Below are positions 3,152 to 28,603 of a stretch of 35,142 nt of DNA, piece after piece; position 1 is the first letter of the stretch; each line of letters starts with the position of its first letter. The DNA lies in contig JANQEP010000139.1 of NCBI GenBank assembly GCA_028278305.1, positions 1-35,142 of the forward strand, in the 5' to 3' direction. The position numbers were made by a program, and so were the translations under genes. The stretch is from Candidatus Gastranaerophilales bacterium. GTDB taxonomy: Bacteria > Cyanobacteriota > Vampirovibrionia > Gastranaerophilales > UBA9971. The notes below the pieces were generated by a model that was not told where the DNA came from, did no database searches, and saw nothing but the letters and a program-made list of their open reading frames with translations.

Positions 3152-3320
3152 GTACAAACCCTCGCTTGTTTTCATTATTATAACTTTATTTTCAGATGAA
3201 AATAATACTTTTTGATAAAAATTTACAAAAAATTAACATATTATAATAAATTAATATGTTTAGGGTAAAATTATGTATTCTTTTACGAAACCTCGTTAGG
3301 TTATGAGACCACTTCTAAGA

Positions 3321-3340
3321 ATTTTTTATTACTTCCTTAT
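3321..3340 (-). repeat. Half copy of the ~55-bp palindromic repeat family
   Basis: ATTTTTTATTACTTCCTTAT matches one arm of the full copies at 5428-5483 and 28550-28603. It lies 28 nt past the rlmH stop. The other arm is absent. Confidence 0.7.
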
Positions 3341-3349
3341 CATAAAGTG

Positions 3350-3367: not shown

Positions 3368-3368
3368 T

Positions 3369-5304: not shown

Positions 5305-5427
5305 TATCCTGCCCTTTTTTATAAATTATCTGAATCATTAAAATTATTTATCACATTCTAAACAAGATTTAGCAATATTGCAATTGTTTTGGCTGGTCTT
5401 CTTTTCTGAATCAACTGTCGAAAATCA

Positions 5428-5483
5428 TTAAGGAAGTAATAAAAAATTTTAAAATGCGTAAGTTTTTATTATTTACCCCTTAA
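5428..5483 (+). repeat. Full copy of the ~55-bp palindromic repeat family
   Basis: It runs from TTAAGGAAGTAATAAAAAAT through a TTTTAAAATGCGTAAG core to TTTTTATTATTTACCCCTTAA. The two ends are imperfect inverted copies of each other. It lies between two minus-strand glycosyltransferase genes and contains the TAA stop of the upstream one (5480-5482). Confidence 0.85.
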
Positions 5484-6667: not shown

Positions 6668-6856
6668 TAGTTTTAACCTGCAGGTTATTTCTTCCTTTAA
6701 TATACAGCAAAAACAAAATATAAATTTTTGTTCCGAAATCTTAATGTTTATGCAAAATTTTACCGGTAATTTTAAAAAAATAATATCTATTGAAATTACT
6801 TATTTTTACTCTCTCACAAAATCAATAAAAAAATTTATTTGCGAGCTTTATTTCTA

Positions 6857-8005: not shown

Positions 8006-8315
8006 AAGAATCCCAGCCTTCAAAAATATCTATCCCTGCTGCTATATCCCTGATTCTTGATAAGTCCAGCTTGTCAAGATTTTCAAGAGAACCATTTTCT
8101 TGTCTTCTTATCTCCTCTATATATTCCATGGTGGCTTTAGAAGGAGCTTGAGCCGCTTTAAAAGGCAATACCTGCGCCCTGTGATAAGCAGGAATAATAT
8201 AAACCGGTTTTATATAACCATTATTCCTGCTCTCAGAAGCTTTTAGGTTTGTTTTACTTTTTTGGAGCAGGGGGCTATAGTAATTATTCTGAATATTATA
8301 AACAGAATTAATCAT
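7983..8315 (-). CDS. Unknown 110-aa protein coupled to the radical SAM gene
   Basis: I do not recognise a family. An AAGGA stands 10 nt before the ATG. The N-terminal 60 residues are polar, low in structure and rich in Asn, Ser, Tyr and Lys. A VLPFKAAQAPS stretch follows near residue 48. Then come a predicted helix (KATMEYIEEIRRQENGSLEN) and a C-terminal LDLSRIRDIAAGIDIFEGW, ending SYDNKFCC. There is no signal peptide. The frame overlaps the start of the radical SAM gene by 23 nt. It could be a partner or substrate of that enzyme, or an unrelated lineage-specific protein. The Cys-Cys end is notable but proves nothing alone. Confidence 0.6.
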   Translation of the reverse strand: MINSVYNIQNNYYSPLLQKSKTNLKASESRNNGYIKPVYIIPAYHRAQVLPFKAAQAPSKATMEYIEEIRRQENGSLENLDKLDLSRIRDIAAGIDIFEGWDSYDNKFCC

Positions 8316-8415
8316 TTAAAATTTTCCTTTTTTAGTCAGCTACAAAATTAAAAACAAAACGAAAATAAAATTGCCTAAAACTGGCAAAAAAATGGTTAAA
8401 ATAATTCAGGTAAGT

Positions 8416-9792: not shown

Positions 9793-9829
9793 ACTAATTT
9801 ATTTTTTTCGGGATAAAATTAAATTTTTT

Positions 9830-10585
9830 TCATAAAAATTCAATCATTTCAGCTGTTTTTAATTTTCTGTCTGATCTTTGTGAAATAAACTCCTTTAAAA
9901 TGTTAAAACCTGAAAATAAGAGATTTTTGTCTTTATACTCGTTTTCAAAGGGAAAATCATAATTTATAGCATCTCTGAACAATTTAATATGGCGTTTGTC
10001 AATTTCAAAGGATTTCCGGCTTTTGAGAAAGCATTCACTGCATACCACGCCGCCTGTTTCCGGGCAGAAAAAGTGATAAGTCCTGTATTTCCGCTCTGTT
10101 TGATTGCATCTTACGCAACTGTCAAGTTCTACGGCATATCCCAGATATTCGGCTAATTTCAGCTTAAACCTTAACACTGCCCACATGCTCTCTTCATTAT
10201 TATCAAAAATAGATATGTTTTTAAACGTTTCAAACAAAATATCGTAAATTTGTGAGCTGTTTGAATCATTCTCCGTACCGAAAACATTAATTAACTCAGC
10301 ACAGTAGAAAGCGTAAGAGAGCTTACTATAATCTGTTTTTAGCTTACAAAAACTTTCTATGTTTTCTGCCTGGCAGACTATATCAAGGTTTCTGCCCTTT
10401 GCCAGGAAAAGCTTATTTGCCATAAAAGCCTGCATTCTTCCTCCAAGGCTGCTTTTTGCCCGCTTAACCCCCTTGGCTACACATCTTATTATTCCGTAAT
10501 CCCTGGAATACATGACAATTATCTTATCTGCTTCACCGAAGTTATATGACTTTAAATTTATTGCCTGGGTGCTATAATGAGGCAT
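9830..10585 (-). CDS. recO: DNA repair protein RecO
   Basis: RecO loads RecA on SSB-coated single-stranded DNA with RecR in the RecFOR pathway. The 251 aa length is normal. The N-terminal OB fold is seen as INLKSYNFGEADKIIVMYS and GIIRCVAKGVKR. A helical domain follows. Two cysteine pairs, CVRC near residue 156 and CPE...CSEC near 175-182, form the zinc-binding site found in many RecO proteins. It is the first gene of a likely two-gene unit with the MFS transporter. Upstream lie a degenerate ORF and repeats. Confidence 0.95.
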   Translation of the reverse strand: MPHYSTQAINLKSYNFGEADKIIVMYSRDYGIIRCVAKGVKRAKSSLGGRMQAFMANKLFLAKGRNLDIVCQAENIESFCKLKTDYSKLSYAFYCAELINVFGTENDSNSSQIYDILFETFKNISIFDNNEESMWAVLRFKLKLAEYLGYAVELDSCVRCNQTERKYRTYHFFCPETGGVVCSECFLKSRKSFEIDKRHIKLFRDAINYDFPFENEYKDKNLLFSGFNILKEFISQRSDRKLKTAEMIEFL

Positions 10586-10681
10586 TTAAAATACGAACCC
10601 CTATATTTTAATTATACTATAAGTTTTATATGCGGATTGTAGCACACTTAGGCATATCGGGCAGGTTATTAAATTTAAATC
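10586..10681. other. Leader region upstream of recO
   Basis: AT-rich spacer before the recO start. An AATTATACTATAAG stretch (10608-10622) could hold a -10 box on either strand, but no convincing -35 partner was found. The orphan ORF at 10601-10723 crosses it. Confidence 0.3.
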
Positions 10682-10723
10682 AAGGGGTAAAGAATAAAAA
10701 CTTACGCATTTTTTTTCTTTCAT
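10601..10723 (-). pseudogene. Orphan 40-codon ORF made from a duplicated start plus repeat
   Basis: The same AAAGGAGG-ATGAAAGAAAAA start as at position 24 reappears here. After MKEKK the frame runs straight into a copy of the 55-bp palindrome (CVSFYSLPL is that repeat translated) and stops after 40 codons. It shares only four residues with the gene at the left edge. I read it as a start region that lost its gene by recombination or insertion. It may still be translated, but a function is unlikely. Confidence 0.5.
10682..10712 (-). repeat. Half copy of the ~55-bp palindromic repeat family
   Basis: AAGGGGTAAAGAATAAAAAC followed by TTACGCATTTT matches the AAGGGG arm and core of the copy at 28550-28603. 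The other arm is replaced by the duplicated 88-bp segment, which begins at 10711. Confidence 0.8.
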
Positions 10724-10798
10724 AACTGTTCCTCCTTTATGATTTACAGTTATTATTTCAGATTTTAACTTTTTTTCATTAAACTTTTAGCCACTACC
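10711..10798 (-). repeat. 88-bp direct repeat, copy B
   Basis: Near-identical to 12-99. It contains a ribosome binding site and ATG (10723) but no downstream gene. It abuts the half palindrome at 10682-10712, so one boundary of the duplication coincides with that repeat. Confidence 0.9.
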
Positions 10799-10843
10799 AA
10801 ATTTTCAAAAACCTTGCTCTTCCTTTTAAAATTTTATCAGCAA

Positions 10844-11854
10844 TTATATCTGCATAGTTTTAACTATATAAGAATAAAAATCATCAACACTTTCGGGCTG
10901 AAAAACCTGCGTATTTAACCCGGCAAAAATTGGTCCGAACCCAAGTTTGTTATTTTCAGCAAAATAAGCTGCTACAGAACGTTTTTTCATTAAATTTGCG
11001 ATGTGCAAAGGACCTGTGTCGTTTCCTACATAACCTGCAGATTTCTTTAAAAGACAGGCAAGTTGAAATAAATTTAATTTTCCCCTGTAATCCTCTATAT
11101 AATTTTTATCAGGCAAACTTATTCCCCGGTTCATTCCTATGAAAACAATTTTATAGCCAAAATCCCTATAACATTTCTCAGCCATTTCAAAATATTTTTC
11201 AATTTCCCAGCATCTTTCATCCATATGTTTTTTGCTATATCCGGCTTCTATGCAAAATATAAGATAAGGTTTTTCAGGTATAGCTAAAGATTCATCATTA
11301 AATTCATCAAGACTGAAAAGATCAGAAGAAAAATTAAATGTATCTATGATTTGCTTTTCAGAATATCCTAATTCCAGGCATATGCCAAAAAGACTGATAG
11401 AAGACAGGGAAAATCCGTACTTATCTGTTAAAAATTCCAGAAGATTGCCGGGTAAAAACGTTTTTAAGTTTTCGTAAGTCAAAAAAAGCTGGTTTGACGA
11501 ATATTGTAAATATCTGGGTTGAACAGAAAATTTTAAGAATTTTTTAAAACTGTTTTCTATACCATAGCTTTTTTTTGAATGGTAACCAAAGTTTTTATAA
11601 GTGGTTTCTATAAAAAATGCTCTATCAGCAGGTATTGCCCGGGATTTTAATTTTTCAGCCAGGTTCATTGACCTGACGTTAAGGCACTTTAAAGAAGCAA
11701 AAAGTTTAAGCAGATATGGATATATCAAAACATTAACATCCAGATTACTGTTATATTTTTCATTTAATTGCTGTAAACAAACAATTACAGGTAAACTAAG
11801 AATGGAATCCCCTATTCTTGTGGGAAAAATAATAGCAATTTTTTCTTGTTTCAT
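10844..11854 (-). CDS. GT9 glycosyltransferase (heptosyltransferase-like)
   Basis: The 336-aa GT-B protein starts KIAIIFPTRIGDSILSLPVI, the N-terminal nucleotide-fold signature of ADP-heptose:LPS heptosyltransferases. It carries the GT9 donor motif VGNDTGPLHIANLMKK near residue 276. The family adds heptose or other sugars to the lipopolysaccharide core at the inner membrane face. The middle (about residues 95-190) is divergent, so the sugar is uncertain. It lies 78 nt after pth on the same strand. The ribosome binding site is weak. No other LPS genes are near. Confidence 0.82.
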   Translation of the reverse strand: MKQEKIAIIFPTRIGDSILSLPVIVCLQQLNEKYNSNLDVNVLIYPYLLKLFASLKCLNVRSMNLAEKLKSRAIPADRAFFIETTYKNFGYHSKKSYGIENSFKKFLKFSVQPRYLQYSSNQLFLTYENLKTFLPGNLLEFLTDKYGFSLSSISLFGICLELGYSEKQIIDTFNFSSDLFSLDEFNDESLAIPEKPYLIFCIEAGYSKKHMDERCWEIEKYFEMAEKCYRDFGYKIVFIGMNRGISLPDKNYIEDYRGKLNLFQLACLLKKSAGYVGNDTGPLHIANLMKKRSVAAYFAENNKLGFGPIFAGLNTQVFQPESVDDFYSYIVKTMQI

Positions 11855-11932
11855 CTATTTGCCAATCAGAATTTTATATAAATTATAGTAACTAAAAAAT
11901 AGAAAGTGAAGTCAGGTAACCTCAATGACGGG

Positions 11933-12517
11933 TTAGTTATCTTCCAGAATATTTATACCGTTAAATTTATTTCTCGCAGCAGCCATTTCCTGCTGAATAT
12001 AAAATTCCACGGCATCTACGCAAACATCGGTTATATTTGGAAGATGTTTTTGCTCCTGCTCGGAAAACTTCTGAAGTACATATGTTTTCCATAAACGTTC
12101 GCCCGGGTTTGGTCCTATGCCTATTTTTAGTCTTGGAAAGTTTTCACTGCCGCAACTGGAAATTATGGATTTAATACCGTTATGTCCACCCGCCGACCCG
12201 TCGGGTCTAAACCTTATCCTGCCAAAATCCAGGCTGACATCATCAAAAATAACAAATAAATTACTTACATCCAGCTTATACCAGTTTAAAACCCTTAATA
12301 CAGCTTCTCCTGAAAGGTTCATATAAGTCTGTGGCTGGACAATCAGGACTTCCGTATCTTTTATGTTGCCTTTGCCTATGATTGCATCAAATTTCGGCGA
12401 GTATTTGCCTGTTATTTTAAATTTCTCAGCCAGAGCCCCGGTTATTATGAAACCTATATTATGACGGGTATTTTTATATTTTTCTCCGGGATTTCCTAAC
12501 CCAACGATTACTAACAC
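11933..12517 (-). CDS. pth: Peptidyl-tRNA hydrolase Pth
   Basis: Pth hydrolyses peptidyl-tRNA released from stalled ribosomes. The N-terminus VIVGLGNPGEKYKNTRHNIG holds the substrate asparagine and catalytic histidine (His19). DDVSLDFGRIRFRPDGSAGG holds the catalytic aspartate and glycine loop, and NGIKSII and FPRLKIGIGP follow. I chose GTG 12517 because AGGTG lies 8 nt upstream and MLVIVGLGNPG matches the usual family start; TTG 12523 is too close to that site. The length is then 194 aa, which is normal. It heads the unit that includes the GT9 gene. It is divergent from the HTH regulator at 12883. Confidence 0.96.
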   Translation of the reverse strand: MLVIVGLGNPGEKYKNTRHNIGFIITGALAEKFKITGKYSPKFDAIIGKGNIKDTEVLIVQPQTYMNLSGEAVLRVLNWYKLDVSNLFVIFDDVSLDFGRIRFRPDGSAGGHNGIKSIISSCGSENFPRLKIGIGPNPGERLWKTYVLQKFSEQEQKHLPNITDVCVDAVEFYIQQEMAAARNKFNGINILEDN

Positions 12518-12523
12518 CTGCAA

Positions 12524-12882
12524 AGCACCTAAAGATTAAACTTTTTCAAATCAAACATCAAAAGTAAAGATTTAGCAAAAAATTTTATAAAATGCATGGG
12601 AGTTTTTTGTCTGTTGATTAACTCAATATAGAACCTCTCAAATAATAGTGCCTGTCTATTGAGGAGTTACTACGGTAAATATAATTATTATATTTTAGTT
12701 CTATTGTATATTAAAATTTAAACTTAAAATTTTTACCTGAAAAAACACATTATTTAATCAACTATCTAATTTAAACATTAAACAAACTAATGTAATACTA
12801 TTTTATATACTAGAAGATTTATTATTTTATTTATTGTTAAACCAGACATTTATTACAGGGACTAATAGGGAGGGTAGAGAAA
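12524..12882. other. Divergent intergenic region between pth and the HTH regulator
   Basis: About 360 bp of very AT-rich sequence with no open frame of note. It must hold promoters for both directions. A weak dyad (AACTCAATA near 12620 and TATTGAGGAGTT near 12656) is visible. TATA-like boxes are frequent but none pairs with a clear -35. The last bases hold GGGAGGG, the ribosome binding site of the regulator. Confidence 0.35.
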
Positions 12883-13455
12883 TTGACGGAAAAAGGACAT
12901 GAAACATCAATAGCTTTGACTGACAGTAGCGGGAAGCTGGTAAGCTTTCTTGAGCAAACCGGTCTTCACAAAAAAGATTTTGCAGAAATGATTGGTGTTA
13001 CACTTTCTTACGTTTATAGCCTTATTGACAAGACAGTACCATTTTCCACAAGAACAACGACACTTGAAAGAGTCGCAGTAGTGATGGATATAGTGCCGGA
13101 AGATTTTCCCGAGTACAAAATTTCCGAAGAGCCACGTCTTCTTGACCCGGGTATCCAGTTTCTCAAGGAAAAACAAAAAGAAATGGGACTGTCTAATCTG
13201 GATTTAATTAAAAAATTTCCAAGAAAAAAGAGGGTAGAAATAGTAGATTTATGGAGAGGCGCATTGCCTTTACCGCTTGACTGGAATCATCTTTATTCTA
13301 TATGTGAAATTTTAGGAATTTCTGCTGATGAGATTTACCCTTATTGGCAATCCAGAGTGCAGCAATATCTTATCAGCGGCGGAATCGACGTTATCTCAAA
13401 TGCTCAGCTTATTAATTCAATGTTTAATGGAGCAAAATCCTATCTTAAAATTTAA
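12883..13455 (+). CDS. Transcriptional regulator with two XRE-type helix-turn-helix domains
   Basis: The 190-aa protein has an XRE-like HTH near residues 14-62 (FLEQTGLHKKDFAEMIGVTL, then SYVYSLIDKTVPFSTRTTT as recognition and following helices). A second similar unit lies near residues 87-137 (LSNLDLIKKFPRKK, LYSICEILGISADEIYPYW). Each unit shows the pattern of early helix, LG/MG turn and choice helix. Start is TTG 12883 with GGAGG 9 nt upstream. It probably binds DNA as a dimer, or the tandem units may read two half-sites alone. Its target is unknown; the divergent pth promoter region and its own promoter are the nearest candidates. Confidence 0.75.
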   Translation: MTEKGHETSIALTDSSGKLVSFLEQTGLHKKDFAEMIGVTLSYVYSLIDKTVPFSTRTTTLERVAVVMDIVPEDFPEYKISEEPRLLDPGIQFLKEKQKEMGLSNLDLIKKFPRKKRVEIVDLWRGALPLPLDWNHLYSICEILGISADEIYPYWQSRVQQYLISGGIDVISNAQLINSMFNGAKSYLKI

Positions 13456-13522
13456 CCGCCGGAAAAAAGATTAAAAAGATACATCTTACAAAGTAACCCC
13501 GGTATCTGCGGGGGGCATACCA

Positions 13523-13638
13523 GGCTGCTATTGCGAGGCTGATAAAATTATGAACTATATTATTGTGTATTAAAGAAATAAGCAAAGGATTTTTTTATTA
13601 AAGCGCTTAAAAGCTTATAACACCTCGCAATAACAGTC
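13523..13638. repeat. Palindromic intergenic element (about 116 bp), ATTGCGAGG type
   Basis: GGCTGCTATTGCGAGGCTG (from 13523) and the complement of the segment ending at 13638 (GACTGTTATTGCGAGGTG) are inverted copies with few differences. About 70 bp of AT-rich sequence lies between. Repeats built on TCATTGCGAG cores are widespread in bacteria; this is such a MITE-like element. It lies after the HTH gene and before the PHP gene and may end transcription. Confidence 0.7.
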
Positions 13639-13714
13639 ATTAACAGCTCTTTTTCAATAAAAATTACTTATTTTCCTTATATAATATAACCTGAATAGTA
13701 AAGAAGTATTTATT

Positions 13715-14737
13715 ATGAAATTTATAAGTAAAGGTGCTCTTCACCTTCATACAACGTATTCTGACGGGACGGGGACAATCTCTCAAATAGCCGGGGATGC
13801 AAAAAAAGCAGGACTGGAATGGATAATAATTACTGATCATAACAACCTGACAGGATTGCATAATAACGAAGAAGGCTGGCATGACGGGGTCGCCGTCATC
13901 ATAGGCGAGGAAATCACTCCCGAGCTTGGTGATCATTATTTGGCTTTCGGTTTAACAGAGGCTATCCCGGCTTTTGAAGACCCGCAAAAATCCATCAATG
14001 CGGTAAAAGATCAGGGAGGTATAGGTTTTGTGGCACATCCTGATGAAAACCTTTTCCGCAAAAATGAATACCCGCCTCTAAGATGGTCTGATTGGAGTAT
14101 AAGGGGCTTTGACGGGATTGAAATCTGGAATTACACATCTGACTGGATTGATAACTATGATAAAAGGCTTAATTTTTATAATCTTCTGATAAAAGAGCGT
14201 CTTCTGAAAGGACCTACCCGAAATGTCCTGCAGTGGTGGGATGAGCTGAATAATGAAAACGGAGAAATTACAGCCGCAATAGGAGGATTGGATACCCATG
14301 CCTTTAACGTGGGTCTTCTTACAATTTTTCCTTATTATGATACCTTTAAAACAGTTACAAATTATTTAATTCTCAGGGAAGAATTAGCTTCTGACTTTAC
14401 GGAAGCTAAAAAACAGATTTTAAAAGCCCTGAAATGCGGAAATAATTTTATAGTAAATAGAGTCTGGAATAAATCCCGGGATAATTTCAGTTTTAGTATA
14501 ATTACTAAAAACCATGAAATATTCCCCGGGGAAAAAGTAAGTTTTGCCGAAGCCTGGAAACTTATGGTAAAACTTCCTCAAAAAGCCAGGATCAGGATTA
14601 TCCATAACGGAAAAATCATTCTGGAAAAAGAAACCAGGACAATTGAGCTTGATAAACCAGCCCCGGGTAAATACAGGTTTGAGGCTTATTTAAAAAACCG
14701 TCCCTGGATTTTTTCAAACCCGATTATATGTGAGTAA
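13715..14737 (+). CDS. PHP-domain metal-dependent phosphoesterase with C-terminal beta domain
   Basis: The PHP metal ligands appear in order: HLHTTYSDG near residue 9, ITDHNNLTG near 43, GEEITP near 65, VAHPDE near 108, and GGLDTHAF near 191. These bind a metal cluster that hydrolyses phosphoesters. The C-terminal 90 residues (from about 250) look like a beta-sandwich, with an ARIRIIHNGKII strand pair and PGKYRFEAYL. The 340-aa length and this layout match stand-alone PHP proteins of unknown substrate rather than polymerase or histidinol phosphatase. yjbQ follows 17 nt downstream with its own ribosome binding site, so they form an operon. Confidence 0.85.
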   Translation: MKFISKGALHLHTTYSDGTGTISQIAGDAKKAGLEWIIITDHNNLTGLHNNEEGWHDGVAVIIGEEITPELGDHYLAFGLTEAIPAFEDPQKSINAVKDQGGIGFVAHPDENLFRKNEYPPLRWSDWSIRGFDGIEIWNYTSDWIDNYDKRLNFYNLLIKERLLKGPTRNVLQWWDELNNENGEITAAIGGLDTHAFNVGLLTIFPYYDTFKTVTNYLILREELASDFTEAKKQILKALKCGNNFIVNRVWNKSRDNFSFSIITKNHEIFPGEKVSFAEAWKLMVKLPQKARIRIIHNGKIILEKETRTIELDKPAPGKYRFEAYLKNRPWIFSNPIICE

Positions 14738-14754
14738 GTTAAGAGAGAATAAAA

Positions 14755-15171
14755 ATGCCTATAGCAACAGAAAGATTTAATATTAATACCCGCGGGTTCA
14801 CGGATATTATTGATATAACACAAAAGGTAAAAGAAGCCGTAAAAAAGCATAATCCTGAAGATGCCCAGATTATGGTATATGTGGCAGGAAGCACTGCTTC
14901 TATAGCGACCCTGGAGTTTGAACCCGGCCTGATACGGGATCTTCCCGAAGCTTTTGAAAAATTTGCGCCCATGAATAAGACTTACCACCATGACGAGACC
15001 TGGCATGACGGAAACGGTTACGCTCATGTCCGGGCTGCAATTCTGGGAAGTTCCAGTAACTTCCCTGTAAAAGACCGTGAAATTGTGCTTGGAACCTGGC
15101 AGCAGATAGTTCTTATTGATTTTGACAATAAACCCCGCACCCGGGGAATTTATATACAGATTATTTATTAA
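14755..15171 (+). CDS. yjbQ: YjbQ family protein (UPF0047)
   Basis: The 138-aa length is exact for the family. Signatures are IDITQKVKEAV, VYVAGSTASIATLEFEPGL, the HDETWHDGNGYAHVRAAIL core with its conserved histidines and LGTWQQIVLIDFD near the end. Family members have weak thiamine-phosphate synthase activity in Escherichia coli, and their physiological role is unclear. AGAGAGAA lies 6 nt before the ATG. It follows the PHP gene closely, which may point to a shared small-molecule role. Confidence 0.93.
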   Translation: MPIATERFNINTRGFTDIIDITQKVKEAVKKHNPEDAQIMVYVAGSTASIATLEFEPGLIRDLPEAFEKFAPMNKTYHHDETWHDGNGYAHVRAAILGSSSNFPVKDREIVLGTWQQIVLIDFDNKPRTRGIYIQIIY

Positions 15172-15460
15172 GAAACTCAAGTTGCCGTCTGTAAAGATTT
15201 CTCTATTTTACATAAGAATTTTTTTATTACTTCCTTATATGGATTAGAAAAGGAGAATCATGCCGCGCTGTAAGTATTTTAGCTGGAGAATCCTTTTCAT
15301 TCCTTCAGGGGCAAGGAATTTGGGCTTTTGAAAAAATTTATAAGCATCAATAAGTTTATCAATAAAAAATACATTTATTATAAAAAATTGATTTAACAAT
15401 TTTTATTTTATAATTATAAAATTGAATAAAATAAAAAAGTATTTTTGAAATGTGGGCAAA
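15172..15460. other. Gap between yjbQ and the PilZ-like gene
   Basis: It holds a half palindrome (15214-15238). A fragment reading AGAATCCTTTTCATTCCTTC, about 15280-15310, resembles decayed intergenic palindromes. An AT-only hairpin follows (AAAAATTG 15383-15390 with CAATTTTT 15397-15404). TTGATT (15388-15393) and TATAAT are separated by 15 nt, a possible but weak promoter for the PilZ-like gene. Confidence 0.35.
15214..15238 (-). repeat. Half copy of the ~55-bp palindromic repeat family
   Basis: A TTTTTTATTACTTCCTTAT arm follows the yjbQ stop by about 45 nt. It matches the arm at 3321-3340; the rest of the element is missing. Confidence 0.7.
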
Positions 15461-16123
15461 ATGTCAGAATCATCAGAATTAATTTTTGAAAGTTTAAAAA
15501 TATTTGAACCTCTTAAAATTGAGATTTTAGATGAGAAAGATGACTATTATCAGCTAAGCAGCACCATCGAAAAAATTTGCAGCGAATATTTAATTATTAG
15601 CCCGCCAAAATTCGGGAATGGATATTTTGATTTGCCTGTTGACGCGGAAATAAGTATTGTCTTCTACAGAAGTGACGGAATATTGTTTGGACATTCTAAA
15701 ATATTATCCAAACAGTCAGTAGATGAGGCAAGACTTAAAATTACCCTGCCTTACAATGTCGAGTTAATTAACAGAAGAAGGGCTAAAAGATTCAGATTAA
15801 GGCTAAAGGCAGAGGTTGAGTATTTTATTAATAAAAATGATACAAATAAAAAAATATTAAATGTCGGAATAAATGATATAAACATGTACGGCATAAGCTA
15901 TTTTGATTACGAGCCGCTGGGTAAATACCATAATATCAAATGTAAGATTTACCTGAATGATAATAACCCGAATCCTGCTACGGCTCAATGCAGATTTGTA
16001 TATTCCCAGAAAAAGATGATAAAAGGATATAGTATGTACAAAACAGCGCTGGAATTCACAAAAATTTCCAGGGATGATAAAGAACGGATACATCAAAGAT
16101 GTTTTAGAAAATTTTATGTATAA
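15461..16123 (+). CDS. PilZ-domain protein, YcgR-like, with altered c-di-GMP motif
   Basis: The 220-aa protein has an N-terminal beta-rich domain of YcgR type (about residues 15-95) and a C-terminal PilZ domain. The PilZ arginine cluster NRRRAKRFR sits at about residues 104-112. The second motif, normally D/N-x-S-x-x-G, reads D-I-N-M-Y-G (139-144), so the serine is asparagine. Family knowledge: RxxxR and DxSxxG together grip cyclic di-GMP, and YcgR-type proteins brake flagella or act on synthases. Binding here may be weakened or altered. I chose ATG 15461 over GTG 15452 as GTGGG lies just before it. The Maf genes at 30490-34447 suggest the cell may have flagella. Confidence 0.75.
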   Translation: MSESSELIFESLKIFEPLKIEILDEKDDYYQLSSTIEKICSEYLIISPPKFGNGYFDLPVDAEISIVFYRSDGILFGHSKILSKQSVDEARLKITLPYNVELINRRRAKRFRLRLKAEVEYFINKNDTNKKILNVGINDINMYGISYFDYEPLGKYHNIKCKIYLNDNNPNPATAQCRFVYSQKKMIKGYSMYKTALEFTKISRDDKERIHQRCFRKFYV

Positions 16124-16142
16124 GGACGTAAAAAAATTTTAT
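16121..16142 (+). repeat. Possible decayed half copy of the ~55-bp palindrome
   Basis: ATAAGGACGTAAAAAAATTT resembles the ATAAGGAAGTAATAAAAAAT arm. It overlaps the stop region of the PilZ-like gene, the same position relative to a gene as the clear copies. Similarity is partial. Confidence 0.35.
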
Positions 16143-16281
16143 GGGAGCAGGCAGGATTTTCATTGAGCTATTGAGTTTTTATTTAAATTCCGCAAAGATT
16201 CGTATTCTTAACTTGAAAATTAAATGCTCGTGAAGTACTTTACTGTATAGAATCAAATAAAAAAATAAAAACTAAAAAGTA

Positions 16282-17070
16282 ATGCAGGATACAAAAAATC
16301 ACAACTCAGCACCGGCAATAAAAAAAGGACCTTTTTGCTCAAAAGTCCTTGAAAACAGGAGAGTCTCTGAAGATATTTACCTGTTAAAACTTGAGAGCAG
16401 GAATATTGTAGAAAATTCTCTTCCCGGGCAGTTTGTATCAATTAAGTGCAGGGATTTAACGCTGAGAAGACCTTTTAGTGTGGCTAAAGTTTATGATGAT
16501 AATACCTTTGACCTTATTTATAAGGTAATTGGGCAGGGAACACAATATTTAACAGGTTTAAAAGATGGGGATACAGCTGACTTTATAGGACCTATGGGTA
16601 ATTCTTTCAGCATAGAAAACAAAAATTCCCTGCTGATCGGTTGCGGTGTAGGAATTGCGCCTATAGTTTATATGGCGCAAATTCTTGAGAAAAGGGGAAT
16701 CAAACATAATTGCATAATAGGAACAAAATCATCTATTGATATAGAGCTGTGTAATAAGTCATATAACCTTACTGAAGACGGTTCCTGCGGATTAAAAGGA
16801 AGGCTTGACCATCACCTGGAAGGAATAATCACAGAAACACAGGCGGAAAAAATATTCATCTGCGGACCAAACCCGGCTATGAGATATGCAACTGACATAG
16901 CTAAAAAGCATAACCTGGAAATTGAAGTTGCGCTTGAAAAGGTAATGGCTTGCGGAACAGGAGTATGTATGGGTTGTGTTATTGAGGTCCTGGAAAACGG
17001 GGAAAAATTACAAAGACGTGTTTGCAGGGACGGACCTGTTTTTAACGGAGCAAGTATTCTATGGGAGTAG
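16282..17070 (+). CDS. pyrK: Dihydroorotate dehydrogenase electron-transfer subunit PyrK
   Basis: PyrK carries electrons from PyrD to NAD+ in the class 1B dihydroorotate dehydrogenase. The 262-aa protein shows the FAD motif RRPFSVAKVY near residue 70, GCGVGIAPIVYMAQI near 114 for NAD binding, IFICGPNPAM near 192, and a C-terminal [2Fe-2S] site with cysteines at about 224, 229, 232 and 248. The 3' end overlaps pyrD by 10 nt, so the subunits are co-translated. No clear ribosome binding site is visible at ATG 16282. Confidence 0.96.
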   Translation: MQDTKNHNSAPAIKKGPFCSKVLENRRVSEDIYLLKLESRNIVENSLPGQFVSIKCRDLTLRRPFSVAKVYDDNTFDLIYKVIGQGTQYLTGLKDGDTADFIGPMGNSFSIENKNSLLIGCGVGIAPIVYMAQILEKRGIKHNCIIGTKSSIDIELCNKSYNLTEDGSCGLKGRLDHHLEGIITETQAEKIFICGPNPAMRYATDIAKKHNLEIEVALEKVMACGTGVCMGCVIEVLENGEKLQRRVCRDGPVFNGASILWE

Positions 17071-17999
17071 AAAATACAAATATTACTGATTTATCAGTCC
17101 AAATCGGCTCTTTAAAGCTGAAAAATCCTGTGATTACCGCATCAGGCACCTTCGGGTATGCTAATGAATATGAGGAATTTCTCAGCCTGAAAAACCTGGG
17201 AGCTATTGTAACCAAAGCTATAACACTTAATCCGAGAAAAGGAAACCCCCAGCCCAGAATAAAAGAGGTTTCCGGCGGTCTTATCAATTCAATCGGACTG
17301 GAAAACGTTGGTATTTACGAATTTATTGATAAAAAACTTCCTTTATTAATACAAAACAATATTGATTTTTTCGTAAACATAGCAGGTGAAAGTATTGAGG
17401 AATATAAAAAAGTTGCCGCAATCTGCCGGCAAAACAATATCAGGGCTTTGGAGCTGAACTTATCCTGTCCCAGCGTTAATAAAGGATGCCTTGAATTTGG
17501 AAAGGATGAAAAAACTTTATATGACTTAATTTCCGCTGTCAGGGATGTTTTTCCGGGGATTTTAGCAGTAAAATTAGGGTCAAATGTTTCATTCCCGGAA
17601 AAAATTGCCGTTACTGCTCAAAAAGCCGGAGCAGACGCGATTTCTGCGATTAATACGGTTAAGGCAATGAACATCAGCCTTAAAAAAAACTATAAGGGCT
17701 TTAATTTTATAAAAGGCGGGCTTTCAGGTCCATGTATAAAGCCTGTAGCCTTAAATTTTATCTTTGAAATTAAAAAACATGTCACTATTCCAATCATCGG
17801 CATGGGAGGAATTATGACCTTTACTGATATGCTGGAATTTTTTGCTGTCGGGGCTGATGCAATACAAATCGGTACGGGAACTTTTACTGACCCGGACCTT
17901 GGTGAAAGATTGGTTTTTGAATTGAACAGCTTTATGCAGGCTAATAAATATAAGAACCTGGAGGAATTGATAAATAGTTTAAGAACAGAGGACGAGTAA
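17061..17999 (+). CDS. pyrD: Dihydroorotate dehydrogenase class 1B, catalytic subunit PyrD
   Basis: PyrD oxidises dihydroorotate to orotate in pyrimidine synthesis. The 312-aa FMN barrel shows NPVITASGTFGYANEYEEF, GGLINSIGLENVG, and ELNLSCPSVNKG near residue 135, where the cysteine is the catalytic base typical of class 1. FMN phosphate binding is at GMGGIMTFTDMLEF and ADAIQIGTGTF. Presence of pyrK next to it supports class 1B, which uses NAD+ rather than fumarate or quinone. pyrE starts 2 nt after its stop. Confidence 0.97.
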   Translation: MGVENTNITDLSVQIGSLKLKNPVITASGTFGYANEYEEFLSLKNLGAIVTKAITLNPRKGNPQPRIKEVSGGLINSIGLENVGIYEFIDKKLPLLIQNNIDFFVNIAGESIEEYKKVAAICRQNNIRALELNLSCPSVNKGCLEFGKDEKTLYDLISAVRDVFPGILAVKLGSNVSFPEKIAVTAQKAGADAISAINTVKAMNISLKKNYKGFNFIKGGLSGPCIKPVALNFIFEIKKHVTIPIIGMGGIMTFTDMLEFFAVGADAIQIGTGTFTDPDLGERLVFELNSFMQANKYKNLEELINSLRTEDE

Positions 18000-18001
18000 T
18001 A

Positions 18002-18571
18002 ATGATTGATCTTTTGAAAAAAACAAACAGTCTCATGGAAGGACATTTTGAGCTAAGCTCCGGTTTACACAGCGATAAGTATTTTCAGTGCGCCAGATTG
18101 CTTCAGTATCCGGAATATGCGGAAATCGCAGGTAAAAAAATCGCAGAGCTGTTTGACGGTAATGATGTCGATATAGTACTCGGACCTGCCCTGGGGGGAA
18201 TAATAATCGGCTATGAAGTAGCTCGGGCTCTCGGCAAAAGGGCTTTATTCACGGAAAGAAAAGACGGCTATATGGAGTTAAGAAGGGGATTCCAGATAAA
18301 TGAAGGTGAAAAAATCCTTATAGTAGAAGATGTTATAACCACCGCAAAGTCAGTTAAAGAAAATATACAGATATTACAGGGATATAAAGCAAATATTACA
18401 GGAATAGCCTGTATAGTTGACAGGTCAATGGGAAGGTCCGGTCTGCAGCTGAAGTCTCTGCTTCAAATGGATCCTGCTGTATACTCTGCTGATGACTGTC
18501 CTTTGTGCAGGGAAGGCATAGAAATAGAAAAACCCGGAAGCCAGGCAAAAGTTACAAGGTATATTATATAA
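18002..18571 (+). CDS. pyrE: Orotate phosphoribosyltransferase PyrE
   Basis: PyrE joins orotate to PRPP, giving orotidine monophosphate. The 189-aa protein has the FELSSGLHSDKYFQCARLLQ N-terminal motif, GPALGGIIIGYEVARALG, FTERKDG and the PRPP loop ILIVEDVITTAKSVKENIQ near residue 105. The loop has AKS instead of the common GGS, as in some bacterial homologues. It is the last gene of pyrK-pyrD-pyrE; pyrB, pyrC and pyrF are not in the window. The C-terminal DDCPLCREGIEIEKPGS is also family-typical. Confidence 0.96.
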   Translation: MIDLLKKTNSLMEGHFELSSGLHSDKYFQCARLLQYPEYAEIAGKKIAELFDGNDVDIVLGPALGGIIIGYEVARALGKRALFTERKDGYMELRRGFQINEGEKILIVEDVITTAKSVKENIQILQGYKANITGIACIVDRSMGRSGLQLKSLLQMDPAVYSADDCPLCREGIEIEKPGSQAKVTRYII

Positions 18572-18631
18572 ATTCATTTAATAAAATTGGTAGTGGAATT
18601 TTTGAAAAATTTCCTTGTCTCCGGAAATTGA

Positions 18632-18836
18632 GTTGATAACACCCAAATCGTCATTGCGAGGGCTCAATTATAATTTGAAAGCCCGTGGCAATCTGTGGAA
18701 CCCCGTGTCAAAGCTTAAAATTTATAGCTTAGTGCGACTTTGCTCAGATTCCCACGTCGGGCGAATAACAATTACCTGCTTACATTCTCGCTTTTTCGCC
18801 CGCGCTGCTCAAAATGACATTTCGGTAGCTATCAAC
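18632..18836. repeat. Palindromic intergenic element (about 205 bp), TCATTGCGAG type
   Basis: GTTGATAACACCCAAATCGT (18632-18651) and its continuation CATT pair with the complement of 18813-18836 with few mismatches. Inside, CGTGGCAATCTG pairs with CAGATTCCCACG. The arms match the widespread TCATTGCGAG...GTGGCAATCT repeat style. A middle stretch (CCCCGTGTCAAAGCTTAAA) resembles parts of the element at 2554-2796, so this copy may be a composite. It follows pyrE. Confidence 0.75.
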
Positions 18837-18852
18837 ATGGTGTCGGCAGGCA

Positions 18853-18897
18853 GAAAAAAATTTTAAAATGCGTAAGTTTTTATTGTTTATTCCTTAA
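18853..18897 (+). repeat. Nearly full copy of the ~55-bp palindromic repeat family
   Basis: AAAAAAATTTTAAAATGCGT, then AAGTTTTTATTGTTTATTCCTTAA, matches the core and right arm of the copy at 5428-5483; the left AAGGAAGTAAT tip is missing. It lies 16 bp past the larger palindromic element and before the gene at 18996. Confidence 0.8.
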
Positions 18898-18995
18898 TTG
18901 ATCAATACTTGATTTACAAAAAACAGGCAATTTTTTAAAATCATTTGTTTTTATATAGATAAAGGGAATTTTGTTAATTATAGGGGGTAGGTAAT

Positions 18996-19682
18996 ATGAG
19001 TTCAATTTTAACAATTCCGAGGCTAGGGAGTAGCGCTCAACCACCTTTATTTCCGGTTTCCGATGGTCCGGTAAGACCTGAAGGAGCAGAAGGACCAGTG
19101 TTTTCGGAAATAAATGCAGAAAAAATAAGAAAATTAAGAGAGGAAAATGAGGAACGTTTAAAGAATTATGTAGAGGAAATTAAGCAACAAATATCGGATA
19201 GCCTGGAGTCAATAATATATAGTCAGCTTAACAAATCGCCCGGAGAGGGTAAATCGGACTTATTACAAAATATATCATTGACAGGCGTTAATGGAGGAGC
19301 TGGAGGTGTTTATTTTTCATCTTTAAGCAATGGTGAGCTTCAATTAACCGCATTTATAAATGATTCAATCAAAGGTTCAGAAGGGAATAATATATTTGTC
19401 GGAAGCAGCCTGTCTGTTTCTATAGAAATTGATGATGAAATGCGCCAAAAGATGAAAGAAGCAGTTTTGGAATATATCGGCTCTGGTCTTGAGCAGGTTA
19501 AAAAGTTACAACCGGGAGAAAGCATAGTTTTAGAGGAAACAGGAAATGGTATTCCATTAATATCTGCTTCAAGGGATAATGATGGTATTAAGATTAAAAT
19601 TAATAAAAACGGAATAAGTCTTAATATAGTCTTAAAACCTAATGAACTTGATATTGATGGACGAGCAAGAGAAGAGAAATAA
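18996..19682 (+). CDS. Protein of unknown function (228 aa)
   Basis: No family is recognised. GGGGGTAGG precedes ATG 18996. The first 35 residues are proline-rich and probably disordered. Residues about 40-72 (AEKIRKLREENEERLKNYVE and on) are charged helix with coiled-coil character. A glycine-rich stretch (GVNGGAGGVYF) follows near 99. The rest alternates short strands with an acidic helix (DDEMRQKMKEAVLEYI). No signal peptide or membrane segment, and no cysteine. The last 41 nt overlap the nagA frame. It may be a cytoplasmic or exported lineage-specific protein; the overlap suggests co-translation with nagA but not a shared function. Confidence 0.65.
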   Translation: MSSILTIPRLGSSAQPPLFPVSDGPVRPEGAEGPVFSEINAEKIRKLREENEERLKNYVEEIKQQISDSLESIIYSQLNKSPGEGKSDLLQNISLTGVNGGAGGVYFSSLSNGELQLTAFINDSIKGSEGNNIFVGSSLSVSIEIDDEMRQKMKEAVLEYIGSGLEQVKKLQPGESIVLEETGNGIPLISASRDNDGIKIKINKNGISLNIVLKPNELDIDGRAREEK

Positions 19683-20829
19683 AAACTCCTACACACTGAT
19701 CTCAGGCGGTTTTATCCAAAATCCCGGGGAGATTAAACAGAAAAAAAATATCCTGGTTCAGGGCAGTAAAATTATTGATATAATTGATGATATTCCCTTT
19801 GATATCGAAAATTTCAAGATTATAGACGCGAAAGACTGTATTATAACTCCAGGGCTTATAGACCAGCATATTCACGGGGGATATGACTGCAATTTTAATA
19901 CAGCAGAAGTAAAAACTATAATTAATTTTCTCTCTAACCTGCCAAAGCACGGAATAACTTCAATTTGTCCTACTATAATGACAGATGTACTGGAAAATAT
20001 AAAGGTTCAAACCCGGAGAATCATTGAAGCCGGTAAATTACTGCCTGAAACTTCCGCTAAAATAATCGGCATAAACCTTGAAGGCCCTTTTCTTAACCCG
20101 GAATACAAAGGAGCTCACGCTAAAGAGCTGTTTATTAAACCTGCAATTGAGAATTATAAGAAAATAGAGTCTGATGAAGTTAAGATAATCACAATTGCGC
20201 CCGAGATGGACAGAGGGTTTGAATTAACAAAATATCTCTCAGAAAAAGGGGTTATAGTTTCAGCAGGGCATTCAAAAGCTGATGGGGGTGAGATTAAAAA
20301 AGCTTTTGATGCGGGCTTAGCGCATATAACACATATTTTCAATGCAATGCCGTGCTTACATCACAGGAATCCGGGAATTATCGGGAATTCACTGGTTAAT
20401 GACGCGGTTTATGTTGAAGTCATAGCAGATCATAACCATTTACATCCTGATATAGTAGAGTTAATTTTACGGTCAAAACCCGAAGATAAAGTAATATTCA
20501 TAAGTGACAGCCTGCCTTTAAACCGGGGCAGCTCAGAATCAACAGTTTTCGGGGGGCAGAAAATTTTTAACAGGGGCGAATTTGCGGTAAACGAAGAAGG
20601 CAGGTTTGCCGGAAGCCTGATGTTTTTGGATTCCGTGATAAAAAAGAATTTAAGTTCGGCAGGTTTTCCGAAATTATTGAAATATTGTTCCCAAAACCCG
20701 GCTAAGAACCTTAAAATGAAAACCCTGGGCTATATAGACAGGGAAATGACAGCTGATCTTGTGATATGGAAGCAAGAGACGGCTGAAATACAGAAAGTGC
20801 TTATAAATGGAAATCTTTGTACTACATAG
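19642..20829 (+). CDS. nagA: N-acetylglucosamine-6-phosphate deacetylase NagA
   Basis: NagA deacetylates GlcNAc-6-phosphate in amino-sugar use and cell-wall recycling. The 395-aa amidohydrolase shows ITPGLIDQHIHGG (His76 and His78, metal site), NLEGPFLNPEYKGAH with the metal glutamate, SAGHSKADGGEI, GLAHITHIFNAM, IADHNHLHPDIV and the catalytic aspartate in FISDSLPL. No ribosome binding site stands before ATG 19642 or the in-frame ATG at 19657, so the start is uncertain. The gene overlaps the unknown gene upstream by 41 nt and probably relies on coupling. No nagB or PTS gene is near. It is convergent with glcF, 19 nt away. Confidence 0.93.
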   Translation: MNLILMDEQEKRNKNSYTLISGGFIQNPGEIKQKKNILVQGSKIIDIIDDIPFDIENFKIIDAKDCIITPGLIDQHIHGGYDCNFNTAEVKTIINFLSNLPKHGITSICPTIMTDVLENIKVQTRRIIEAGKLLPETSAKIIGINLEGPFLNPEYKGAHAKELFIKPAIENYKKIESDEVKIITIAPEMDRGFELTKYLSEKGVIVSAGHSKADGGEIKKAFDAGLAHITHIFNAMPCLHHRNPGIIGNSLVNDAVYVEVIADHNHLHPDIVELILRSKPEDKVIFISDSLPLNRGSSESTVFGGQKIFNRGEFAVNEEGRFAGSLMFLDSVIKKNLSSAGFPKLLKYCSQNPAKNLKMKTLGYIDREMTADLVIWKQETAEIQKVLINGNLCTT

Positions 20830-24030: not shown

Positions 24031-24102
24031 GCCGGTGTAGCTCAATGGTAGAGCAACGGTTTTGTAAACCGTAGGTTGCGGGTTCGAATCCCATCACCGG
24101 CT
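24031..24102 (+). tRNA. tRNA-Thr (anticodon TGT)
   Basis: GCCGGTG at the 5' end pairs with CACCGGC at the 3' end. The anticodon arm ACGGT-TTTGTAA-ACCGT gives anticodon TGT. The T arm has GGTTCGAATCC. CCA is not encoded. It is 33 nt upstream of tRNA-Tyr. Confidence 0.95.
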
Positions 24103-24135: not shown

Positions 24136-24218
24136 GGGTAGGTGCCCGAGTGGCTAAAGGGGGTGGACTGTAAATCCACTAGCGAAAGCTTACGTTGGTT
24201 CGAATCCAACCCTGCCCA
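24136..24218 (+). tRNA. tRNA-Tyr (anticodon GTA)
   Basis: GGGTAGG pairs with CCTGCCC. The anticodon arm GTGGA-CTGTAAA-TCCAC gives GTA. A long variable arm (TAGCGAAAGCTTACG) marks it as class II, as expected for bacterial tRNA-Tyr. CCA is not encoded. Confidence 0.95.
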
Positions 24219-24991: not shown

Positions 24992-27900
24992 ATGCTAAAA
25001 ACAAAACGCAAAACATACGGGAACACCTGGTGGGGCGGTGTTTGGATAGAAGCCTTAGAAAGGATTGACTCAAACAGGCTGGCAAGAGGTAAAACATACG
25101 CTAACACCGGCAGGGTTAAAAATATAAAAATTGATAAGGGTAAGGTCTCAGCCAGCGTAAAAGGCTCATATTATGACTCTTACCGCATAAAGATAAATCT
25201 TGAAAAGTTCACCAAAGACGAAATAAAAAAAATTAAAGAAATAATTGCTCAAAATCCTTCGATTGCAATTGAACTGGGCATGGGCAACTTGCCGGAATCG
25301 CTGCTGGCATTAATCGAAAAAGAAAAAATAACTCTTCTTCCAAAAAAGTGGAAAGATTTAAAATCAAGCTGTTCCTGCCCTGATTCGGCTAATCCCTGTA
25401 AACACCTCGCGGCAGTCTACTATATGCTCGCAAACGAGATAGATAAAGACCCGTTTATACTTTTTAGTATTAAAGGATTTGAATTTGAAAAACAGCAAAA
25501 AAAACATCAAAAAGAACATCCCATAAAAAGCAAATTTGTTGACTTATCAGAACAAAAACCCGGAGAAATAGATGTTAATATTGACGATTTTGAGTTTTCA
25601 TTTCCTCAATATGATATAAGACCCTTGCTGTCGCTGCTTCCTGACAACCCGCCATTTTTTAATGAAGGCAATTTCAAGGATTTTGTTGAAAATATCTATA
25701 AAATAGTCGGTCAAAAACTCGAAACAGCAATCCCTGAAGTAGAAGATTCGCCTAAGTTAATAAAAAACGAGTTCCAGCTTGAGTTTGTAAAAGATGAATA
25801 CAGCCCTAAAAATATTTTCAGAATGAAAATCGTTCCTGATAAAGATAATTTTGAAGTGGACAGGCAAAAAATAATTGAGGAAATAACTAAATCAAACTTT
25901 ATTTCTGAAAAGGCCTTCTTGCCCGAAAAAACAAGGGCAGTATTACCTCTGGAAATAAAATCAAGCATAAATTATTTTCTATCCCAGTCTGTAGACATTG
26001 ACTATGACATAGCATCAGACAGCTTTGCATTCTTAAATATCCTTTCATCAATGTCGCTTGGGCTGGTAAGGGCTAATTTATATTTACCGGAAGTGGTTTT
26101 TGAAACAGACAATGCCTTTACAATACGATATATCCCGTTTGTTAAAGATGAAATAATCCAGGCACAGCTTGAAAAATTAAAACAAATAATGCCCCTGTAT
26201 ATTTGTTATCAGGAAGATAAATTCCTGTCAGAAGACGGGGTATTTGACCTACTATCGCTGTTTATAACGCATATAATAAAAAAGATTATTTATATCTGGA
26301 AGGGGCGCCCTCCAAAAGATAAAATAATACCTGTTTTTGCCTATGATTATTTATTCAGGGCAAATACTTTTGCTGAAAAAAATATAGCGCAAAGCATTGC
26401 AAACTGGCTGGAGAAACTTTACGTACGCAAAAAAGACATCTGCCCGCTCATCAGGATAGAAAACCTTAAAGATGAAAACTTCGGGATTTTTGTTGATGTG
26501 GTCAACAAAAAGAACTCTCTTGAGCCTGTAACTGAGTACAAAAAACTAAAAGACAAGGCAGAGATATCCAAACAACTCATTATTGCCGGTGAATACTTCC
26601 CTGAGTTAAAAGAAATAGTTGATAAAAACGGTAAAACCGTCCCGGTTATTTCAATGCAGAAGATTGCGGAAATATTTTTGAATACTATAGCTATTTTTAA
26701 CGTTATGGGTATTGAAATAGTTTTTCCCAAAGAGCTTAAAAAACTGGCATTCCCTCATTTACAGGCAAGGGCAAAACTTAAAAAATCTGTTGAAACAGGC
26801 GCAAGCTATATTAACCTTGATGAAATGCTTGATTTTTCTTATGAAGTAGCCATTGGAAATGAAATTATACCGTTAAGTGACTTCCGCAAACTGGTTAAAC
26901 AAACCCAGGGACTAATTAAATACAAGGATGAATATGTGCTTTTAAAGCCTGAAGAAGTCCAGAATATCCTGAACAAACTTCAAGACCCTTTCCCCCAAAT
27001 GTCTTCATCAATGCAGGCATTATACACAGCAGTTTCCGGCGAGATAAACGGCGTGAAATTCCTGGCAGACGAGGCTTTGCAAAGGGTTCTTGATGATATT
27101 ACAAAAATAGAAGAAGTTAATATCCCTGAAAACCTTAATGCAACCCTGCGTCCATATCAGGAAAGAGGGTTCAGGTGGCTGTACTCAAACGCTAAAAAGC
27201 GGTTTGGCTCGTGTATTGCTGATGATATGGGACTCGGTAAAACTATCCAGGTCATAACCCTGCTTTTACAGTACAAAAACGAAAACAAAACGCCAAAACC
27301 CTCACTTGTAATCTGTCCTACAACATTAATAGGCAACTGGGAAAAAGAGTGCAGGCGGTTTGCACCGTCCTTGAACCTGAACATCTATCACGGACTGGAA
27401 AGACAGCTTAAAACAAAAGACGTTGATGTTTTAATTACAAGCTATGGCACTTTCAGGCGAGATGTAAAGAAATTCAGCGCACAAGACTGGAGTTTCCTTG
27501 TAATTGATGAAGCCCAGAATATTAAAAACTCGGAAACTGCCCAGACAAAAGCCATAAAATCACTAAAAGCTGATAACTATATTGCAATGACAGGTACTCC
27601 GGTTGAAAACAGGTTAGCTGAACTCTGGAACATTTATGATTTTATTAACAAGGGCTATCTTGGCAGTATGACAAGGTTCAAGACAGAACTTGCCAGTCCT
27701 ATAGAAAAATACAAGGACAAAGACACTATAGAAAAACTCAAAAAAGCAACCGCCCCTTTTCTATTAAGGAGATTAAAAACCGATAAATCAATTATTTCAG
27801 ACCTGCCGGATAAAATCACTTTTGATGAATATTGCTACTTAACAAAAGAACAGGCAGCGGTTTACCAGAGTATTGTTGAAGATATAATGCAGCAGGTCGA

Positions 27901-28552
27901 GGAATCTGATGGCATCCAGCGAAGAGGGTTAATCTTTAAGCTGATAACCGCACTGAAGCAAATATGCAATCATCCTGCGCACTATGCAAACAAAGGCAAC
28001 ACCAGCTCAGACCTGTCCGGAAAAACCGCAAAAGCCCTTTCTATAATAGAAAATATACTTGATAACAGGGAAAAATCATTAATATTCACCCAGTACAGGG
28101 AAATGGGCGATATTTTGCAGGAAATAATCAAAAATGAACTCAAAGAAGAAACTATTTTCTTCCACGGCGGGGTAGCAAGGAAAAAACGGGATGATATGGT
28201 CAATGCATTCCAAAATGACAAGAGAACAAGGCTGATGATAATATCCTTAAAAGCTGGCGGCACGGGTTTAAACCTGACAGAGGCATCAAATGTTATTCAT
28301 TATGATTTATGGTGGAACCCGGCAGTTGAAAACCAGGCAACTGATAGGGCATACAGAATTGGGCAGGATAAAAATGTTATAGTACACAGGTTGATTACGC
28401 TTGGCACGTTTGAAGAAAAAATTGACGAAATAATAAAATCCAAGAAGGAGCTTGCTGACCTGACTGTTTCAACCGGTGAGAGCTGGATTACAGAAATGTC
28501 TAACAAAGACCTGCGGGATATATTTACGTTTGTTAAGGGTTTTAAGGAGTAA
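24992..28552 (+). CDS. SWIM zinc-finger SNF2-family helicase/ATPase
   Basis: The 1186-aa protein has an N-terminal SWIM zinc finger, C-x-C-x6-C-x-H, at Cys127, Cys129, Cys136 and His138. A long middle region resembles SNF2-associated domains. A two-lobe SNF2 motor follows from about residue 710. Walker A is DDMGLGKT at 744-751, Walker B is DEAQ at 839-842, motif III is TGTPVENRLAELW, and lobe 2 carries SLKAGGTGLNLTEAS and NQATDRAYRIGQ. These enzymes translocate on double-stranded DNA and remodel bound proteins; RapA-like and defence-linked members exist. The motor appears intact. It follows the UPF0158 gene by 13 nt. Its stop codon lies in a palindromic repeat. Nothing here identifies it firmly as defence. 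Confidence 0.92.
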   Translation: MLKTKRKTYGNTWWGGVWIEALERIDSNRLARGKTYANTGRVKNIKIDKGKVSASVKGSYYDSYRIKINLEKFTKDEIKKIKEIIAQNPSIAIELGMGNLPESLLALIEKEKITLLPKKWKDLKSSCSCPDSANPCKHLAAVYYMLANEIDKDPFILFSIKGFEFEKQQKKHQKEHPIKSKFVDLSEQKPGEIDVNIDDFEFSFPQYDIRPLLSLLPDNPPFFNEGNFKDFVENIYKIVGQKLETAIPEVEDSPKLIKNEFQLEFVKDEYSPKNIFRMKIVPDKDNFEVDRQKIIEEITKSNFISEKAFLPEKTRAVLPLEIKSSINYFLSQSVDIDYDIASDSFAFLNILSSMSLGLVRANLYLPEVVFETDNAFTIRYIPFVKDEIIQAQLEKLKQIMPLYICYQEDKFLSEDGVFDLLSLFITHIIKKIIYIWKGRPPKDKIIPVFAYDYLFRANTFAEKNIAQSIANWLEKLYVRKKDICPLIRIENLKDENFGIFVDVVNKKNSLEPVTEYKKLKDKAEISKQLIIAGEYFPELKEIVDKNGKTVPVISMQKIAEIFLNTIAIFNVMGIEIVFPKELKKLAFPHLQARAKLKKSVETGASYINLDEMLDFSYEVAIGNEIIPLSDFRKLVKQTQGLIKYKDEYVLLKPEEVQNILNKLQDPFPQMSSSMQALYTAVSGEINGVKFLADEALQRVLDDITKIEEVNIPENLNATLRPYQERGFRWLYSNAKKRFGSCIADDMGLGKTIQVITLLLQYKNENKTPKPSLVICPTTLIGNWEKECRRFAPSLNLNIYHGLERQLKTKDVDVLITSYGTFRRDVKKFSAQDWSFLVIDEAQNIKNSETAQTKAIKSLKADNYIAMTGTPVENRLAELWNIYDFINKGYLGSMTRFKTELASPIEKYKDKDTIEKLKKATAPFLLRRLKTDKSIISDLPDKITFDEYCYLTKEQAAVYQSIVEDIMQQVEESDGIQRRGLIFKLITALKQICNHPAHYANKGNTSSDLSGKTAKALSIIENILDNREKSLIFTQYREMGDILQEIIKNELKEETIFFHGGVARKKRDDMVNAFQNDKRTRLMIISLKAGGTGLNLTEASNVIHYDLWWNPAVENQATDRAYRIGQDKNVIVHRLITLGTFEEKIDEIIKSKKELADLTVSTGESWITEMSNKDLRDIFTFVKGFKE

Positions 28553-28603
28553 GGGGTAAAGAATAAAAAATTACGCATTTTAAAATTTTTTATTACTTCC
28601 TTA
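28550..28603 (-). repeat. Full copy of the ~55-bp palindromic repeat, between convergent genes
   Basis: TAAGGGGTAAAGAATAAAAA, then an ATTACGCATTTTAAAAT core, then TTTTTTATTACTTCCTTAT. It starts at the TAA of the SNF2 gene and ends 5 nt before the 3' end of the HAD gene on the other strand. Position and symmetry would suit a bidirectional terminator. Confidence 0.85.

Follow-up and report, generated by a model that had tools for sequence, protein, structure and literature searches.

Repeats that accumulate downstream of genes are known from the pneumococcus (PMC3049150; PMC2229807; review PMC10969869), where the bias has been ascribed to weak (purifying) selection on insertions (PMC3049150). 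One of them, RUP, is a short, non-autonomous repeat derived from IS630-Spn1, with TA at both ends and about 100 copies that are intergenic and over-represented between convergent genes (PMC2229807; PMC3049150). BOX is a modular high-copy repeat that donates stop codons: 36 genes end within a BOX copy that provides their stop at the extreme 3′ end, with no evident truncation (PMC3049150). SPRITE, a short repeat that resembles a Rho-independent terminator, is likewise concentrated near 3′ ends (PMC3049150), and the Correia/NEMIS and ERIC elements carry TA-ended terminal inverted repeats (Table 1 of PMC2229807), with size classes also present in Correia.

Features of these systems have counterparts in the palindromes described here, which occur in a genome of Candidatus Gastranaerophilales (Vampirovibrionia/Melainabacteria) and came to attention in a 35,142-nucleotide stretch of it (the window). 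An earlier note, made from the letters of the window, knew of no named family with this core; we found none either, and our search for literature naming Gastranaerophilales together with transposable elements found nothing. The palindromes are a new, unnamed family of an already known kind (bacterial MITEs), not a set of terminators. Compared by description rather than by sequence, the known systems also differ from it. RUP is 107 bp long, lives in another host phylum, and has IS630-Spn1 as its proposed partner, whereas no partner IS was found in the contigs searched here. BOX is built of modules (boxA, boxB, and boxC) with ISSpn2 as proposed partner, whereas here there are single TA-flanked palindromes. 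In SPRITE an 18-bp stem precedes a U-rich tract, in contrast to the weak hairpin without orientation bias seen here. Correia/NEMIS and ERIC, again compared by description only, are longer (Correia 107/155 bp) and reside in proteobacteria. By analogy, given its TA ends, inverted repeats, and about 100 copies, the family would work like RUP and Correia, and like BOX it donates stop codons.

A dispersed repeat family and its copies in the window

The palindrome is a dispersed repeat family, far commoner in the genome than in the window. Its exact 18-base core, AAAATGCGTAAnTTTTTA, has 106 matches in the 2.17 Mb genome (160 contigs), 55 forward and 51 reverse; the reversed core pattern, used as a control in the same genome, has none. 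With mismatches allowed, 154 right ends were found in 1.33 Mb, a subset weighted towards contigs with copies that includes 100 of the 106 exact cores. The consensus of the 54-bp form is TAAGGAAGTAATAAAAAATTTTAAAATGCGTAAGTTTTTATTCTTTACCCCTTA, with a mean column identity of 95% across 32 genome copies, and its imperfect inverted arms surround a TTTTAAAATGCGTAAG core, just as the earlier note described. The AT-rich composition would suit simple AT-rich hairpins of chance origin, but that reading is already refuted: 106 exact cores against none for the reversed pattern exclude it, and the 95% identity among 32 copies argues the same way. The suggestion that these are dispersed non-autonomous elements, on the other hand, agrees with what is seen genome-wide.

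Complete copies are mostly 50–55 bp long (mode 54); the rest measure 77–78 or 94–190 bp, and a few reach about 290 bp. All length classes share the ends TAAGG.../...CCTTA and, as expected of MITEs, copies of both 50–55 and 77–290 bp are short, have no coding capacity, and carry terminal inverted repeats. Longer copies have TAAGGAAGTAATAAAAAATTCTTACGTAAAATTTTTCAAAAAT as their left end, in most cases a GC-rich hairpin (ATCTATATGGAATTGTTAA...CCACCTCTGAGGGCGGGCGGGTGGGGA) in the interior, and TTTTTGAAAAATTTTAAAATGCGTAAG...CCCCTTA as their right end. Because the 54-bp form consists of the outer left end joined to the right end, it looks like the product of an internal deletion in the 140–190-bp form. 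Across the genome, about half of the right ends are without a recognizable left end, and many of these are fused to other repeats or fall at the end of a contig. Truncated ends of the family are repeatedly joined at TA, after CTTA or TTTACGTA, to a repeat that starts with GAAGTGGTCTC (L069:5896, L189:6038, L186:1443, L114, L092, and window 3276–3315), as if one element favored TA inside the other.

Two complete copies, two right-half copies, and two left-end fragments from the earlier list of window copies stand (Table 1). The “decayed” seventh copy at 16121–16142 was rejected, its profile E of 12 being at chance level. The complete copies are 96% identical to each other, and the two left-end fragments match the longer form at its left end. 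The fragment at 3318–3339 is followed by the different repeat (GAAGTGGTCTC...) at about 3276–3315, and an inverted interior of GGAGACAAGG type lies to the left of the composite right half, at about 18598–18850.

Table 1. Copies and fragments of the palindrome family in the window, with profile E-values
Feature	Position	Strand	E-value
Left-end (terminal inverted repeat) fragment TAAGGAAGTAATAAAAAATTCTTA	3318..3339	-	0.1 (weak alone)
Complete 54-bp copy, TAAGG...CCTTA	5429..5482	+	4e-17
Right-half copy, joined to duplicated 95-bp gene leader (10711-10805)	10682..10715	-	1e-9
Left-end fragment of long form, downstream of UPF0047 gene	15214..15237	-	1.4 (weak alone; 15219-15237)
Right half of longer composite copy	18848..18896	+	2e-12
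Complete 54-bp copy	28550..28603	-	3e-16

Two other features of the window deserve mention. The duplicated gene leader has its other copy at 12–106 (98% identical) and contains a promoter-like region, GGAGG, and ATGAAAGAAAAA on the minus strand; the copy listed in Table 1 continues directly into the right-half palindrome. In addition, a tandem pair of tRNA genes was identified at 24031–24102 and 24136–24218 (Rfam).

Insertion at TA, host range, and the search for a transposase

The family inserts at a single TA, which is duplicated in the process. Removal of the element and one TA at L100:15719 yields a gapless paralogous empty site, CAATTAG TA ATTCAGGTTAATTAAC, in agreement with several unoccupied relatives of the host repeat. 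At a locus of the genus-mate G002 (L132:7668), GAACTGC TA ATTAACC aligns without gaps to the paralogous empty site GAACTGC TA AATAACT (L069). Finally, the site orthologous to window copy 5429 is empty in the genome of a sister species (G001). These three sites (two paralogous, one orthologous) are the ones read base by base; a single TA is present in the empty sites, and TA is found at both ends of the element if occupied. Duplication of a TA target is a hallmark of IS630/Tc1-mariner-type elements, and the family shows it as a MITE derived from such elements should. Its copies are also many, dispersed, and polymorphic, with 106 exact cores and absence from the sister's orthologous places. In G001, which has its own related subfamily, there are 31 different insertion flanks, and at the loci shown, with one exception, the flank runs exactly into TAAGG; these flanks, together with the empty sites, define the element ends and identify TA as the target. 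Another high-copy repeat, TTAACTCGAGTTGCTAATT..., present at about 110 places in 1.33 Mb (L100, L069, L061, L044, and others), is sometimes a landing site for the palindrome.

The exact core occurs in 11 copies in G002 but in none in the genus-mate G001 and in none of 57 further relatives at family and order level. In the species-genome collection the genus-mate was the sole exact match, viral contigs contained no exact match, and the named matches were to Candidatus Gastranaerophilales (MAG PL23a_bin.110). Judged from these sequence matches, the family is a lineage-restricted expansion. The G001 subfamily numbers at least 40 near-identical copies, which points to a very recent burst, one that has left the assembly in fragments. 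Its element ends (L196–L225) are identical over about 95–97 bp and lie nearly all at contig ends.

No transposase bounded by the family's ends, which a partner IS should match (TAAGGAAGTAATAAAAAATTCTTACG / GCGTAAGTTTTTATTCTTTACCCCTTA), was found in the genome contigs or in G001. The genome has three DDE_3 (IS630-type) fragments, all within elements that have other ends, some of them inserted at TA in or beside copies of the family; a search for DDE_3 in G001, for all its near-identical copies, gave no match. With a TAAGG end about 220 bp from it, the DDE_3 gene on C26 at first looked like the autonomous partner, but it was rejected as part of a nested element with ends CTAGTGCACTGACACA. The transposase fragments on C36 and C136 were rejected for their differing ends, and the DDE_Tnp_1 loci examined were rejected as well, being without TAAGG ends. 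It is important to note that high-copy repeats are often missing from such assemblies and that assemblies break at repeats of this family, as the G001 contigs show, so the missing partner IS is weak evidence. Presumably, an IS630/Tc1-mariner-type transposase provides the family's mobility in trans.

Gene context and rebuilt stop codons

For the analysis of gene context, 77 complete copies were excised and ORFs re-called (as longest ORFs, without curated annotation). After excision, 15 copies lay inside an ORF, many among its last codons, and 54 were non-coding or stop-codon insertions between two genes. The bias to gene 3′ ends that had been noticed in the window holds across the genome: 26 of the 54 insertions (48%) have a gene 3′ end within 20 bp, compared with 969 of 7528 null non-coding TAs (12.9%; p 3e-10). 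Conversely, only three (6%) are within 50 bp of a gene 5′ end, compared with 2048 of the 7528 null TAs (27%; p 9e-5). A different abundant repeat in this genome shows a weaker effect: 35% of its copies have a 3′ end and 23% a 5′ end within 50 bp (47% and 6% for the palindrome family), a rough comparison given that the distances for that repeat were taken from an internal motif.

Purifying selection on insertions yields just such a bias, as has been argued for the pneumococcal repeats (PMC3049150), and we infer that selection, not site choice, is its cause here. Site-selective transposition, that is, active targeting of gene 3′ ends or stop codons in place of selective filtering, is improbable. 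It would fit the finding that close to half of the copies have a 3′ end within 20 bp, as well as the ten insertions exactly in stop-codon TAs (16% versus 3.6% of non-coding TAs), for which 2.3 would be expected from all non-coding TAs. However, among 3′-proximal TAs (≤20 bp) those in stop codons received 38% of insertions against 37% in the null, and thus we see no preference for stop codons as such. Furthermore, on the one flank that is visible, the young G001 copies lack a tight 3′ preference (2 of 31), and none of the 31 has a 5′ end within 50 bp, so subfamilies may differ in their 3′ bias.

Insertion of the element rebuilds stop codons. The terminal TAA serves the neighboring ORF as its stop codon in 15 of 79 copies, and both complete window copies are of this kind, so that for these two the 3′-end location given in the earlier note is confirmed. 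The right-terminal TTA of copy 5429 (5480–5482) is the TAA stop of a glycosyltransferase-like gene (ORF 5480–6667, minus strand), and the initial plus-strand TAA of copy 28550 (28550–28552) is the stop codon of a SNF2-helicase-like ORF (24992–28552, plus strand). Both element ends read TAAGG, so the base after TA is A at each end, and insertion into a stop codon gives a stop again (TA + A); in the element's other reading frames a stop is also often met inside. G001 orthologs were found for most of the 15 stop-donating copies, and 12 were informative: the ortholog stops exactly at the insertion point in seven (L045, L046, L061, L091, L183, L187, and window 5429), is off by one codon in four, and by seven codons in one. 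The protein is therefore left intact or nearly so. The gene at window 5429 is 91% identical in amino acids to its G001 ortholog over all 395 residues, with TAA at the same residue, and the gene at copy 28550 has a best G001 match of 54% identity, without a clean ortholog end. The G001 ortholog of L099:6612 (L244) has a related TAAGG element in or adjoining the same stop codon, either as a shared old insertion or as one site used repeatedly.

It is a speculative and rather doubtful idea that selection kept the terminal A of this minimal 54-bp TA-target element because, with this A, insertions into stop codons and gene tails are silent. If true, a stop-codon-regenerating transposon end would be an adaptation that lets the element coexist with a compact genome.

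RNA folding and the origin of the family

A bias to gene 3′ ends is also what would be seen if the palindromes were transcription terminators or mRNA 3′-end protectors, as the earlier note proposed, having spread or been co-opted in the way suggested for SPRITE. Most copies do fold somewhat better than shuffles, and the long form is very stable (−50.7 kcal/mol, z −7). Near-palindromes in general fold strongly. Nevertheless, the hairpin of the 54-bp copies is weak (about −5 to −9 kcal/mol, mainly AU pairs, z about −1 to −2.4) and is not the GC-rich stem followed by a U run of an intrinsic terminator; no intrinsic-terminator match was found at copies in window positions 1–20000, and no Rfam match at copies. 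Compensatory changes in the named hairpin number 0 among 29 distinct copies, against 0.5 in shuffles, and orientation relative to the adjacent gene is even (17 same, 16 opposite). Copies are also missing at nearly all orthologous sites examined in G001. We consider a terminator or protector role for the family quite unlikely; the lack of covariation and of orientation bias argues for a mobile parasite rather than an RNA device, although single copies may have a local effect on transcripts.

The full explanation that we regard as very probable is a non-autonomous MITE family of Candidatus Gastranaerophilales. An element starting with TAAGG and ending with CCTTA would enter TA dinucleotides, duplicating the TA, and would presumably be mobilized in trans by an IS630/Tc1-mariner-type transposase, with the 54-bp form arising from the 140–190-bp form by internal deletion. 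Insertions within genes and 5′ regions would be purged by selection, leaving survivors mainly near gene 3′ ends, and where the target TA sits in a TAA or TAG stop, the A that follows it would rebuild TAA and leave the protein unchanged.

The finding adds an unnamed MITE family for Gastranaerophilales, which are non-photosynthetic relatives of cyanobacteria, and illustrates that such high-copy elements also disrupt metagenome assembly, as in the sister genome. It provides clean, orthology-based cases of transposon insertion within stop codons in which the stop is rebuilt by the element, and stop rebuilding is a testable route by which small elements may survive in gene-dense genomes.
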